A stretch of 34,667 nt of DNA, taken from positions 1 to 34,667 of the forward strand of contig CALZPA010000006.1 of the NCBI GenBank assembly GCA_945827525.1. Direction: 5' to 3'. Positions 7,513 through 34,583 of this stretch are shown here, piece by piece. The notes below the pieces were generated by a model, which was not told the DNA's origin, did not search any database, and saw nothing but the letters and a program-made list of their open reading frames with translations. This stretch comes from an uncultured Lentisphaeria bacterium. GTDB taxonomy: Bacteria > Verrucomicrobiota > Lentisphaeria > Oligosphaerales > Oligosphaeraceae. The number at the start of each line of letters is the position of its first letter. The stretch's first letter is position 1. A program made the translations under genes and the position numbers.

Positions 7513-7517
7513 TTTTG

Positions 7518-7625
7518 TCCACAAAAGACACAAAGGAAGAGTCCACAAAAGACACAAAAGACTCAAAAGAAGAGTCCACAAAAGACGCAAAAGACTCAAA
7601 AGAAGAGTCCACAAAAGACAAAAAA
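7518..7625 (+). repeat. Tandem array: 9-nt units (tccacaaaa/gacacaaaa/gactcaaaa) + gaagag hexamer, forming a 33-nt higher-order repeat
   Basis: Manual phasing: copy 1 (24 nt) 7518-7541, copy 2 (33 nt) 7542-7574, copy 3 (33 nt) 7575-7607, partial copy 4 7608-7625. Confidence 0.92.
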
Positions 7626-7658
7626 GGAGCCGCCACGGGGGGAACCGTGGCGGCTCTT
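7621..7658 (-). terminator. Rho-independent terminator for the GH2-like gene
   Basis: Perfect 12-bp stem GAGCCGCCACGG/CCGTGGCGGCTC (7627-7638 and 7645-7656). On the reverse strand it is followed by CTTTTTGTCTTTTG. Confidence 0.85.
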
Positions 7659-18962: not shown

Positions 18963-20264
18963 TCAGCGGAGCGGGCGGTCGCGTCGGATGGCGGCGGAGT
19001 TGCCGTGTCCGTCGAGTCCCTCGCGTCGGGCGAAGGTCTCGATGAGGGGGAGTTCTCGGAGGAGTGCGTCCTGGCCGTACTCGACCATGCTCATGCGGCG
19101 GAAGAAGAGCTCGACGGTGAGTCCGGAGAAGTAGCGTCCGGCGCCGCCGGTGGGGAGGACGTGGGAGGGGCCGGCGACGAAGTCGCCGACGGGCTCGGGA
19201 GTCCAGGGGCCGAGGAAGATGGCGCCGCAGGCCTGGACGCCCTCGGCGGTCTGCCGCGGGTTCTCGGTCATGATCTCGAGGTGCTCGGGGGCATAGTCGG
19301 TGGCGAGGCGGGTGGCCTGCTCGAGGGAGTCGACGGCGATGAGGAAGACGCCGTTGGAGAGGACTTTGCGGACGCATTCGCTGCGTGAGAGGCGCGCGCT
19401 CTGGGCGTCGAGCTCGTCGCGGACCTGGGCGATGAGTTCCTGGGAGGTGGCGACGAGGACGGCCTGCTCGCGTCCGGAGCCGTGTTCGGCCTGCGAGAGG
19501 AGGTCGGCGGCGATGTAGGCGGGGCTGGCGGTGTGGTCGGCGATGATCATGATCTCGGAGGGTCCGGCGACGAGGTCGAGGGCGACCTCGCCGTACATGA
19601 GTCGCTTGGCGGCGGTGACGTAGGCGTTGCCGGGGCCGACGATCTTCTCGGCCTTGCGGATGGTCTGGGTGCCGTAGCCCATGGCGGCGATGCCGTAGAC
19701 GCCGCCGAGCCGGTAGACCTCGGTGACGCCGGCGGCGCGGCAGGCGAAGAGGATGGCGGGGTTGACGCGTCCGCCGGGGCCGGGCGGGGTGATGACGCAG
19801 ATTTCGCGGACGCCGGCGGCGGCGGCGATGGCGGCGGTGTGGACGGTGGTGGAGACGAGTGGGGCGGTGCCTCCGGGGATGTAGCAGGCGACGCGGTCGA
19901 GGGGGGCGAACTTCTCGCCGAGGGTCACGCCTGGACGCGGCGAGAAGGACCAGGGCTGGGGGAGGCGCTGTCGCGAGAACTGGCCGACGTGTTCGACGGC
20001 GGCGCGGATGGCGGTCTTCGTCTCCTCGTCCATCTGGGCCTCGGCCTGGTCGAGCTCCGCGTCGGGGACGCGGAACTGGTCGGGGGTCAGGTCGGCGTGG
20101 TCGAACTTGGCGGCGTAGCGGGCGACGGCGGCGTCGCCCTCGCGGCGGATGTCGGCGAGGATGGGGGCGACGGCGGCGTCGATGGCGGGGTCGAACGCGG
20201 AGCGCTGGAGCAGGGGCTTGAGGTCGTCGCGGAAGGAGGGCGAGCTGGAGAGGAGGATTTTCAT
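18963..20264 (-). CDS. hisD: Histidinol dehydrogenase
   Basis: GEKFAPLDRVACYIPGGTAPLVSTTVHTAAIAAAAGV, IVGPGNAYVTAAKRLMYG, AGPSEIMIIAD, LSQAEHGSGREQAVLV, GPSHVLPTGGAGRYFSGL. Confidence 0.96.
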   Translation of the reverse strand: MKILLSSSPSFRDDLKPLLQRSAFDPAIDAAVAPILADIRREGDAAVARYAAKFDHADLTPDQFRVPDAELDQAEAQMDEETKTAIRAAVEHVGQFSRQRLPQPWSFSPRPGVTLGEKFAPLDRVACYIPGGTAPLVSTTVHTAAIAAAAGVREICVITPPGPGGRVNPAILFACRAAGVTEVYRLGGVYGIAAMGYGTQTIRKAEKIVGPGNAYVTAAKRLMYGEVALDLVAGPSEIMIIADHTASPAYIAADLLSQAEHGSGREQAVLVATSQELIAQVRDELDAQSARLSRSECVRKVLSNGVFLIAVDSLEQATRLATDYAPEHLEIMTENPRQTAEGVQACGAIFLGPWTPEPVGDFVAGPSHVLPTGGAGRYFSGLTVELFFRRMSMVEYGQDALLRELPLIETFARREGLDGHGNSAAIRRDRPLR

Positions 20265-20357: not shown

Positions 20358-20720
20358 TCAGGAATGGTGGTGGTGGCCGCAGCCGCAGTCGCAGTCGTCG
20401 TCGTCGTCTGGGAGGTCATGTATTTCGAGGTCGTCGTCGCCCTTGGAGACGAGTTTGATGGAGGGGTCGACCTTGACGAGGACGAAGTAGTCGGCGTCCT
20501 TGAGGAGGGGCGTGCCGTCGGAGGGGAGGATGTTGCGGGCGGCGCTGGAGGGGATCTGGAAGAGGGTGCCGTCGTCGGCGACGCAGGCGATGCGTCCGTT
20601 GGTGACGGAGGCCCGTCCTCGGAGGCACTGGAGGCTGACCTTCTGGCTCTGCGGGTCGGTGACCTTGACGAAGACGACGCAGAGCTTGCGTCCCTCGAGC
20701 TGCTGTGGGGAGACCGTCAT
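20358..20720 (-). CDS. Small protein with acidic, Cys/His-rich putative metal-binding tail
   Basis: MTVSPQQLEGRKLCVVFVKVTDPQSQKVSLQCLRGRASVTNGRIACVADDGTLFQIPSSAARNILPSDGTPLLKDADYFVLVKVDPSIKLVSKGDDDLEIHDLPDDDDDCDCGCGHHHHS. Start at cat 20718-20720. Confidence 0.75.
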   Translation of the reverse strand: MTVSPQQLEGRKLCVVFVKVTDPQSQKVSLQCLRGRASVTNGRIACVADDGTLFQIPSSAARNILPSDGTPLLKDADYFVLVKVDPSIKLVSKGDDDLEIHDLPDDDDDCDCGCGHHHHS

Positions 20721-20736
20721 GGGCGTGTGGCGGGTG

Positions 20737-20826
20737 GTGGATGGGGTGGATGGGGGATGGATGGGGCGAATGGGGGGATGGATGGGGCGAAGGGGGCGGA
20801 TGGGGCGAAGGGGGCGGATGGGGCGC
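20737..20826 (+). repeat. G-rich 9-nt tandem array, ten consecutive units
   Basis: gtggatggg gtggatggg ggatggatg gggcgaatg gggggatgg atggggcga agggggcgg atggggcga agggggcgg atggggcgc. The last part has an 18-nt higher-order period. Confidence 0.92.
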
Positions 20827-20870
20827 ACGGCGTCCGCCCCCGGCTCCAGTCGTTTGGCGCACAGTCTGAC

Positions 20871-20876
20871 AATATA
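20871..20876 (-). promoter_or_regulatory. Putative -10 element (TATATT) upstream of the small Asp/Cys/His protein gene
   Basis: Reverse strand TTCAAAGGCTATATTGTCAG. A near-identical TTCACATGGTATATTGTG lies at 29566-29571 upstream of the RNB gene. No convincing -35. Confidence 0.4.
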
Positions 20877-20926
20877 GCCTTTGAACGGCAAAACTCCAGC
20901 GTGGCGGTCATCTGGGGGAGGCGTGG

Positions 20927-23044
20927 TCAGTGTGCCTCCGCGGTGTCGATGAAGGCGTCCTGGAGGTCGCGGGTGAGGTCGTTGAAGCGTGTGTTCCAGC
21001 CGCAGACGCGGACTTGGAGGTTGCGGTGGCGTTCGGGGTTTTGCTGTGCGTCGCGGAGGACGGCGGGGTCGAGGACATTGAAGTGGACGAAGAGTCCGCC
21101 GACGTTGAAGTAGGTTCGGATGAGGGAGGGGATGACCTTGTGTCCGTCGGGTCCGGCGAGTGCGGAGGGGTGGAGGGTGACGTCGAGGACGGTGCCGTCG
21201 GGGCAGTCGGCGTGGGGGATGCGCGCGGCGGAGAGGAGCATGGCGGTGACGCCCTCGGTGTCGGCCCCGAGGGTGGGGTCGATGTTTTTGGAGAGGTTGG
21301 AGTGGGCGAGGCGTCCGTCGGGGGTGGCGCCGGTCTGCCGTCCGTAGTCGATGAAGTGGTCGATGGACCAGATGCCGCACTGGAAGTGGCCGCCCTTGGC
21401 GTTGGGCTCGCGGTTGATGCGGGCGGCGATGGCGGCGGCGAGTTCGGCGAGGAGGCTGTCGGCGGCGGGGTCGTTGTGTCCGTACTTGGGCGCCTTGGCG
21501 AGGAGTCGCCGCCGGAGCTGCTCGTGTCCCTGCCAGTTGTCGCGGAGGATGCGGCGGAGCTCGTCCCAGGAGACGAGATGGTGCTGGAAGACGGCGTAGT
21601 CGATGGCGGCGAGGGAGTCGGCGAGGGTGGCGATGGCGGCGCACATGATGCCGGAGGTGGCGTAGGTGGTACCGGCCTGGGAGACGTCTCGGCGGCTGTC
21701 GATGCAGCAGGTGAAGGAGCCGGAGAGGAAGGGCGAGGGGTTGACCTGTGGCCAGGCGCGCTCCCAGTCGCGGGCGGTGCGGCAGGTGTCGGCGACGATG
21801 GTGTCGAGGAGGTCGAGGGCGCGTTTTCTGACGTCGGCGAAGGAGCTCGGTGGCGTGGGGTCGTCGAGGATGAGTTCGGCGATGCGCGCGAGGTTGATGG
21901 TGGCGCTCATGGTGCAGGAGAGTTCCTTGCCCATGATGGCGGGCTCGTAGCAGCCGATGGGGAGGAAGTCGATGACGTCCTCGGGTCGCTTGCCGTGGCG
22001 GGTGAACATGTCGTAGGCGGTGTCGTCGTTGGCGAAGACGATGGCGTTCTGGCCGTGGCGGATGGCGTCGGCGAGAAGGTCGAGGCGCGCGTCCGAGGTT
22101 CCGCGGTGGACGCGGAAGGAGAGTTTGGGGTCGATGGCGGCTCGTTTCCGCCAGCAGTCGAAGGCGAGGTCGGTGAGTTCGTTGGCGAGGTCGTGTCCGT
22201 CGGGTGTCCGTCCGCCGAAGCAGATGTTGTTGCCGGCGCCGAAGTGCTGGGAGGAGAATTTGTCGAAGAAGAAGCAGGTGAGTTCGGCGGCCTGCTCGCG
22301 GGTGAGGATGCCGGCCTGGAGGTCGTGGCGGTAGAAGGGGAGGAAGAGCTGGTCGAAGGTGCCCTGGGAGCGGACGTACTCGCCCTCGATCTCCTGTATC
22401 TGGTTGAAGAGGAAGGCGAGCTGGAGGGCCTGGTGGTAGGTCTGCGGCGGGTTGTCGGCGATGGCGTCGAGGGTGTCGATGACGCGGACGGCGTGGGCTC
22501 TGCGGGCGGTGTCGGCGAGGCGGCGGACGTAGGCGGAGGCGGCGTCGTAGACGATGGTGACGGCGGTGAGGAAGTTGCGCTCGTCGTCGGACTGGGCGAG
22601 GGGGAGGGCGTTCTGGGCGCGGTCATGGAGTCCTCGGAGCCCAAGGGCGAGGATGCTTCTCCAGTCGGGTGAGGTGTGCGAGAGGTCGAGGGTGGGCCAG
22701 GCGACGTTGCGCGCGGCCCAGGGGCAGGGTTCGATGGCGTCGCCGGCCTGTCGTCTCCAGGTGCTCTGGAGGTGCCAGAGGAGCCGTCCGGAGTCGATGT
22801 GGTCGGCGAACCAGTCTTGCGGGTCGACGCGGAGCCGCGCGTGTCGGAGGATGAGTTCGAGGGCGCGGGCGCGGATGAGGATGCGGGGGGTGCCGTCGGC
22901 CTCGCCGTCGGCGACGAGCCGTTCGAGTTGCGGGCGGAGCTGTTCTGCGCTTTGTCCGGATGCGTCGTCGAAGGGGATGTCGGGGCTGTACTGGCGGTCT
23001 AGGCTGTCCCTGACTTGGTCGTAGGTGTTCCAGAGTTGGGTCAT
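20927..23044 (-). CDS. Glycyl-radical enzyme, pyruvate formate-lyase-like
   Basis: Active-site Cys motif LPIGCYEPAIMGKE and C-terminal Gly-radical-like motif VRVCGWNTRFNDLTRDLQDAFI; GRE-like NEPNAKGG..., TPDGRLAHSNLSKNIDPTLGAD. Confidence 0.85.
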   Translation of the reverse strand: MTQLWNTYDQVRDSLDRQYSPDIPFDDASGQSAEQLRPQLERLVADGEADGTPRILIRARALELILRHARLRVDPQDWFADHIDSGRLLWHLQSTWRRQAGDAIEPCPWAARNVAWPTLDLSHTSPDWRSILALGLRGLHDRAQNALPLAQSDDERNFLTAVTIVYDAASAYVRRLADTARRAHAVRVIDTLDAIADNPPQTYHQALQLAFLFNQIQEIEGEYVRSQGTFDQLFLPFYRHDLQAGILTREQAAELTCFFFDKFSSQHFGAGNNICFGGRTPDGHDLANELTDLAFDCWRKRAAIDPKLSFRVHRGTSDARLDLLADAIRHGQNAIVFANDDTAYDMFTRHGKRPEDVIDFLPIGCYEPAIMGKELSCTMSATINLARIAELILDDPTPPSSFADVRKRALDLLDTIVADTCRTARDWERAWPQVNPSPFLSGSFTCCIDSRRDVSQAGTTYATSGIMCAAIATLADSLAAIDYAVFQHHLVSWDELRRILRDNWQGHEQLRRRLLAKAPKYGHNDPAADSLLAELAAAIAARINREPNAKGGHFQCGIWSIDHFIDYGRQTGATPDGRLAHSNLSKNIDPTLGADTEGVTAMLLSAARIPHADCPDGTVLDVTLHPSALAGPDGHKVIPSLIRTYFNVGGLFVHFNVLDPAVLRDAQQNPERHRNLQVRVCGWNTRFNDLTRDLQDAFIDTAEAH

Positions 23045-34482: not shown

Positions 34483-34583
34483 CCCTATGTGCCTTTTGCG
34501 GAGGACGCCTAGGGCAATGAGCCCTATGAGCCCTATGGGAAAAAACACACAAAACACACAAGACGAGAGTGACGAGAAGAAAG
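34483..34583 (+). repeat. Composite 9-nt periodic tract switching from CCCTATGAG-type to ACACAAAAC-type units
   Basis: 34483-34500 ccctatgtg ccttttgcg; then in one phase from 34512: gggcaatga gccctatga gccctatgg gaaaaaaca cacaaaaca cacaagacg agagtgacg agaagaaag. Confidence 0.75.

Follow-up and report, generated by a model that had tools for sequence, protein, structure and literature searches.

The G-rich tandem array at positions 20741-20826 of the window (the whole 34,667-nt stretch of DNA that was analysed) is most likely a diverged, locus-specific member of a class of 9-nt arrays in the genome of this uncultured Victivallales bacterium of the gut. In the reading that we consider probable, it is a minisatellite of 9-nt units that was grown by slippage, belongs to a genome-wide intergenic class of short tandem repeats and lacks a dedicated function. 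We favour slippage because the array contains long exact runs at lags 18 and 21 and two phase jumps, because the genome carries a 9-nt class including other arrays of the unit family ATRGGNCNN, the array is specific to its locus and the class has no tie to promoters, and because both the leader RNA and the G-strand DNA fold like shuffled sequences.

Structure and proposed growth of the array

The array consists of nine units, delimited by their cores and by TRF, and is G-rich on the plus strand and C-rich on the minus strand. The cores, ATGGG or AGGGG, start at positions 20741, 20750, 20761, 20770, 20782, 20791, 20800, 20809 and 20818. The phase jumps by 11 nt from 20750 to 20761 and by 12 nt from 20770 to 20782, and strict 9-nt phase is confined to the last five units (20782-20826). 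The units also diverge among themselves (ATGGGGTGG, ATGGGGCGA, AGGGGGCGG). The initial annotation had described ten exact nonamers spanning 90 nt with no indel; the array itself is real and far above chance, but its units are neither identical nor in uninterrupted phase.

TRF places the array at 20738-20825, with a score of 111 at a period of 18 nt (90% matches, 5% indels) and of 73 at a period of 9 nt (72% matches, 12% indels); dinucleotide shuffling of the local 206 nt, repeated 300 times, gives a best score of 68 and a median of 24. Identity at lag 9 is 55/81, a value equalled by 3 of 5000 shuffles when any lag from 4 to 30 is allowed. With a head-to-tail unit in the range of 5-11 nt repeated above chance, the array belongs among intergenic short tandem repeats, and the comparison of orthologue starts and of the -10 element (see below) places it outside protein-coding sequence, with the reading frames through it open.

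The strictly phased half of the array is an 18-nt higher-order repeat on the plus strand (GGATGGGGCGAAGGGGGC.., 20780-20825) with a 28-nt exact run at lag 18, which bears out the 18-nt higher-order unit ATGGGGCGAAGGGGGCGG of the initial annotation. In addition, a 21-nt duplication of GGGGGATGGATGGGGCGAA on the plus strand (20752-20791) gives a 19-nt exact run at lag 21. The exact runs at these two lags suggest tandem duplications of more than one length. Together with the two breaks of phase, the 18- and 21-nt duplications speak against the earlier proposal that the array keeps a selected register rather than reflecting plain slippage.

In the mechanism that we propose, local tandem duplication in steps of 9, 18 and 21 nt, arising by slipped-strand replication, would build the array. 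Its growth inside the leader of a small gene would stretch the distance between the -10 element and the start codon from the common 45-95 nt to 156 nt, and the array would have at most a passive effect, through the length of the leader or the G-rich template strand. Missing mismatch repair as the cause was rejected, since MutS is present in all 21 genomes checked. The presence of MutS fits the lack of 1-3 nt repeats and the tolerance of longer units, which, according to PMC4060949, escape mismatch repair.

The probable leader of a conserved small gene

All the neighbours of the array lie on the minus strand, in the order of a gene for a PFL-like glycyl radical enzyme upstream of the leader (20927-23044; Pfam PF02901 and PF01228), the array, a gene for a conserved protein of 120 aa (20358-20720), and hisD, encoding histidinol dehydrogenase (18963-20264; Pfam PF00815), which is next downstream of the small gene and apparently adjoins it in several relatives as well. 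The small gene is present in 46 of 60 relatives; the named relatives are Victivallales/Lentisphaeria bacteria, three of four of them from animal gut or faeces. Searches of its protein against Pfam and NCBIfam gave no match, and comparison of the structure model with PDB folds gave no significant match. The model predicts a small protein of mainly beta structure whose disordered Asp/Cys/Gly/His tail looks suited to binding metal.

The minus-strand ATG at 20720 and the minus-strand TATATT at 20871-20876 that had been annotated initially are both present. The orthologue comparison fits a start at 20720, and TATATT is a probable -10 element of the small gene: in 18 of 29 relatives, TATA[TG]T precedes the gene by 35-135 nt, compared with a mean of 1.4 and a maximum of 4 in shuffles. 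A scan with a promoter consensus gave no match. From the -10-like element to the start, the usual distance in relatives is about 45-95 nt, and a few have more. The corresponding distance in the window is 156 nt, of which the array accounts for 86, so that it fills an otherwise ordinary leader. The array thus probably lies in a C-rich 5' leader, as first proposed, given that the gene is conserved, its start fits the orthologues and the -10-like element recurs in relatives. From the position of this element and the leader comparison, we infer that the array would be transcribed.

These same data bear on whether the array is translated, be it in an overlapping frame of 64 aa (20717-20911) or as a Pro-rich stretch added to the N-terminus of the small protein. 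Both reading frames are open through the array, and our home-made gene caller extended the small gene to 20891. However, the orthologues begin a few residues before LEG(R/K)K and have no extension, and the upstream starts at 20891 and 20911 both lie upstream of the conserved -10 element, which makes translation extremely improbable.

A regulatory role of the array for the small gene, through a G-quadruplex or a structured RNA, was also suggested. Two matches to the G-quadruplex (G4) consensus pattern occur on the plus strand, which is the template strand of the small gene (20743-20777 and 20784-20814), and to this extent the quadruplex potential attributed to the G strand stands as a pattern match. 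The regulatory part of the suggestion is unsupported. The leader RNA folds no better than its shuffles (z -0.47), the G-strand DNA of the array folds like its shuffles, and an Rfam search gave no match, so that neither an Rfam family nor a better-than-shuffle fold marks the leader as a structured cis-regulatory RNA. On the plus strand, TCCGCCCCC (20833-20841) is the reverse complement of part of an array unit and could pair with the adjoining unit in a 9-bp hairpin, but its fold is likewise no better than shuffles (z -0.99). Moreover, few arrays of the class to which this one belongs have a G4 motif: 4 of 20 others in this genome and 0 of 32 in G006, a complete genome of the same family (G005, with 5 of 8, is an exception). 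The leaders of relatives, too, have no array. Regulation of the small gene by a quadruplex or an RNA structure is therefore very unlikely.

Between the -10 element and the start, an array is absent from all 29 relatives, the nearest of which belong to other genera. The initial annotation had taken absence of the array from close relatives as evidence against a selected register; such absence is what we find, at the distance of genera only. Farther upstream of the small gene, arrays built from other units, of 7 or 9 nt, occur in four of the relatives (G001, G003, G022 and G035).

Nine-nucleotide arrays in this genome and its relatives

For the analysis of the wider class, we sampled 1.19 Mb of the same genome, which is about a third of it, and took intergenic regions from the home-made gene caller, which recovers the genes expected in the window. 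Among intergenic arrays of at least 3 copies in this sample, 18 have a period of 9 nt and two a period of 10 nt, and none has a period of 7, 8 or 11 nt. The array studied here is outside the 18 because the gene caller ran the small gene through it. With this array left out, the intergenic autocorrelation at lag 9 (0.311) is slightly high: it stands above the general 3-nt ripple, lags 6 and 12 giving 0.306 and lags 8 and 10 giving 0.288. Intergenic stretches of 45 nt in which 34 or more positions match are confined to lags 9 and 18. An excess at lag 9, whose absence from other intergenic regions would have counted against the initial annotation, was thus found. Of 85 contig ends, moreover, 16 carry a 9-nt array, or 14 when two poly-G ends are set aside, compared with 1-2 for other lags and with 11 of 20000 interior windows for lag 9. 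By this enrichment, the assembly appears to break at the arrays, and they are probably more numerous than the contigs show.

The 9-nt units of this genome fall into about six kinds. The unit ATGGGGCGA of the array clusters with ATGAGCCCT, TATAAGACC and TGGGGCTCA, and three units of the family ATRGGNCNN in a row occur at about 31 other places in the genome, whereas a reversed control gave 0. Several other repeats were noted alongside these. Near the contig end, the window itself contains 2.3 copies of ATGAGCCCT (34517-34537), which belongs to the unit family of the array. At 7517-7636 it has GTCCACAAAAGACACAAAAGAAGA repeats with periods of 9, 24 and 33 nt, and similar GTCCACAAAAGACACAAAA blocks are found in many other intergenic places, for example at L057 5974, L062 976, L102 13633, L103 16435, L106 8485 and L107 638. 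Intergenic REP-like blocks at L064 8240-8560, L080, L081 and L151 of the same genome are mosaics of CTCTCGTCA 9-mers with GCCTCGCTTCGCTCGGCGG palindromes, and L077 15500-15762 (contig C24) has three tRNA-Glu (TTC) genes in tandem, carried by identical repeats of 94 nt.

The abundance of the unit family leaves room for another origin, in which the array was seeded from another array of the same family by gene conversion, template switching or a mobile element. Besides the roughly 31 potential sources, this would be consistent with the composite elements in which arrays of relatives sit, namely the inverted pairs of G006 and G005 and the GC-rich inverted repeats of G039. On the other hand, the exact unit pair ATGGGGCGAAGGGGGCGG is unique to this locus in the genome, and the locus has no shared flanks, inverted partner or terminal repeats. 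We regard such a transfer as quite unlikely here, and local growth by slippage as the better account.

The class extends to related genomes. In 400 kb of G006, 26 intergenic arrays have a period of 9 nt, four a period of 10 nt and two a period of 8 nt. Other genera have both 7-nt and 9-nt arrays, and across eight genomes of the family the different kinds of unit number 10 at 7 nt, 1 at 8 nt, 14 at 9 nt and 5 at 10 nt. The array-bearing gaps of G006 comprise 9 tandem, 6 convergent and 6 divergent ones, the convergent ones being at least proportional to their length; since convergent gaps also bear arrays, the arrays are not tied to promoters.

Inverted pairs of arrays make up 10 of 32 arrays in G006, where controls gave 0, and 5 of 8 in G005. 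At L133, L127, L128, L130 and L131 of G006, an array of the reverse-complement unit follows a 9-nt array within about 120 nt, forming long inverted pairs, and L128 9704-10557 is a 95-copy array of GACGGAGCA that occupies 854 nt between two genes. In G039 (L242, L259 and L264), (GTCCCATNN)n arrays lie inside GC-rich inverted repeats GCGCCGCC...GGCGGCGC, and such arrays could be the loop of a hairpin formed by the enclosing repeats. A model with an inverted partner (hairpin) holds in relatives; none was seen in the genome studied here, in which contig ends truncate many of the arrays.

The unit core was traced through 243 genomes of the phylum. Three copies of ATGGGAC in a row occur at period 9 in 9 genomes and at periods 8 and 10 in 1 genome each, with 0 for the reversed control; a broader scan with three copies of ATGGGN4 was dropped because most of its matches appear to be coding repeats for Met-Gly-Gly (ATGGGCGGC and similar). 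In 122 units of the ATGGGACNN arrays of relatives, positions 4-7 (GGAC) depart from the consensus in 6, 2, 7 and 4 units, whereas positions 8-9 vary most (42 and 65). Note that the seeds of these arrays were picked by their core, and that the seed units are omitted from the position counts. Conservation of the GGAC core in the arrays of relatives is not what plain slippage predicts. In the array studied here, ATGGGGCGA and AGGGGGCGG differ at core position 2.

The preference for period 9 and the conserved core would both be expected if a DNA- or RNA-binding protein read the core G-G-N-C at 9-nt spacing and the arrays of this family, including the one studied here, were kept as platforms with multiple sites. 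However, the register is broken twice here, and units of AGGGGGCGG and ATGGGGCGA take turns; many arrays in this genome consist of unrelated units, convergent gaps carry arrays as well, the array is not conserved at this locus in relatives, and the candidate protein is hypothetical, none having been identified. A binding platform is thus distinctly unlikely. Growth by slippage, which we prefer, in its plain form does not explain the near-universal 9-nt unit or the rarity of 8-nt units in relatives.

Meaning of the class and comparison with known repeats

The importance lies less in this one array, which matters little, than in its class. Such arrays probably limit the assembly of these gut bacteria from short reads, as roughly one in six of the sampled contig ends of this genome is a 9-nt array. 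What is of interest is that the unit length is nearly fixed in arrays of unrelated sequence and that relatives conserve the GGAC core of the recurrent unit; plain slippage accounts for neither. Many unrelated arrays share 9 nt, and sister genera have 7-nt but hardly ever 8-nt arrays; we therefore put forward, as an unlikely and tentative proposal, that Victivallales fix the length of the unit and not its sequence, with lineage-specific machinery, either the footprint of a polymerase for replication or repair or a protein that reads GGNC at 9-nt steps, setting that length. The idea that unit length follows the polymerase footprint is quoted in PMC4692102, and a family in which unrelated repeats share a length of 9 nt (or 7, rarely 8) is a natural test of it.

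In the open literature, we found no paper on 9-nt arrays in Lentisphaerae/Victivallales and no description of a near-fixed unit length with many unrelated sequences; most subscription journals lie outside this search, and the result is not proof of absence. The short tandemly repeated repetitive (STRR) heptanucleotides of cyanobacteria are short tandem intergenic units with a preferred length. They resemble the arrays described here in having such a length, but their units are of 7 nt and they belong to another phylum. PMC4692102 mentions the heptanucleotides of Calothrix. Methanococcus voltae, M. aeolicus and Natrialba magadii, among others, have simple sequence repeats of 6-11 nt units between their genes (PMC4060949). 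In the portion of that paper considered here, they are likewise over-represented, intergenic and of the same size class, but they come from another domain, and a dominant 9-nt length does not appear in that part of their description.

Heterogeneous G-rich heptamer repeats are known from Xanthomonas (GGGAATC / GGGANTN) and Nostoc (GGGGA(C/T)T), and slippage is discussed as their origin (PMC4692102). Like the present class, they are tandem and mostly intergenic, have one dominant unit length per genome, and combine a conserved G-rich core and free positions with variation in length (PMC4692102). They differ in having 7-nt repeats of one G4-forming unit, whereas the arrays here have many unrelated 9-nt units, mostly without a G4 motif. 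The G-tracts expected of a G4-forming class are found in the array at 20741-20826 and not throughout its class, and the unit is not of 7 nt; for these two reasons, we do not file the class with the Xanthomonas and Nostoc repeats.
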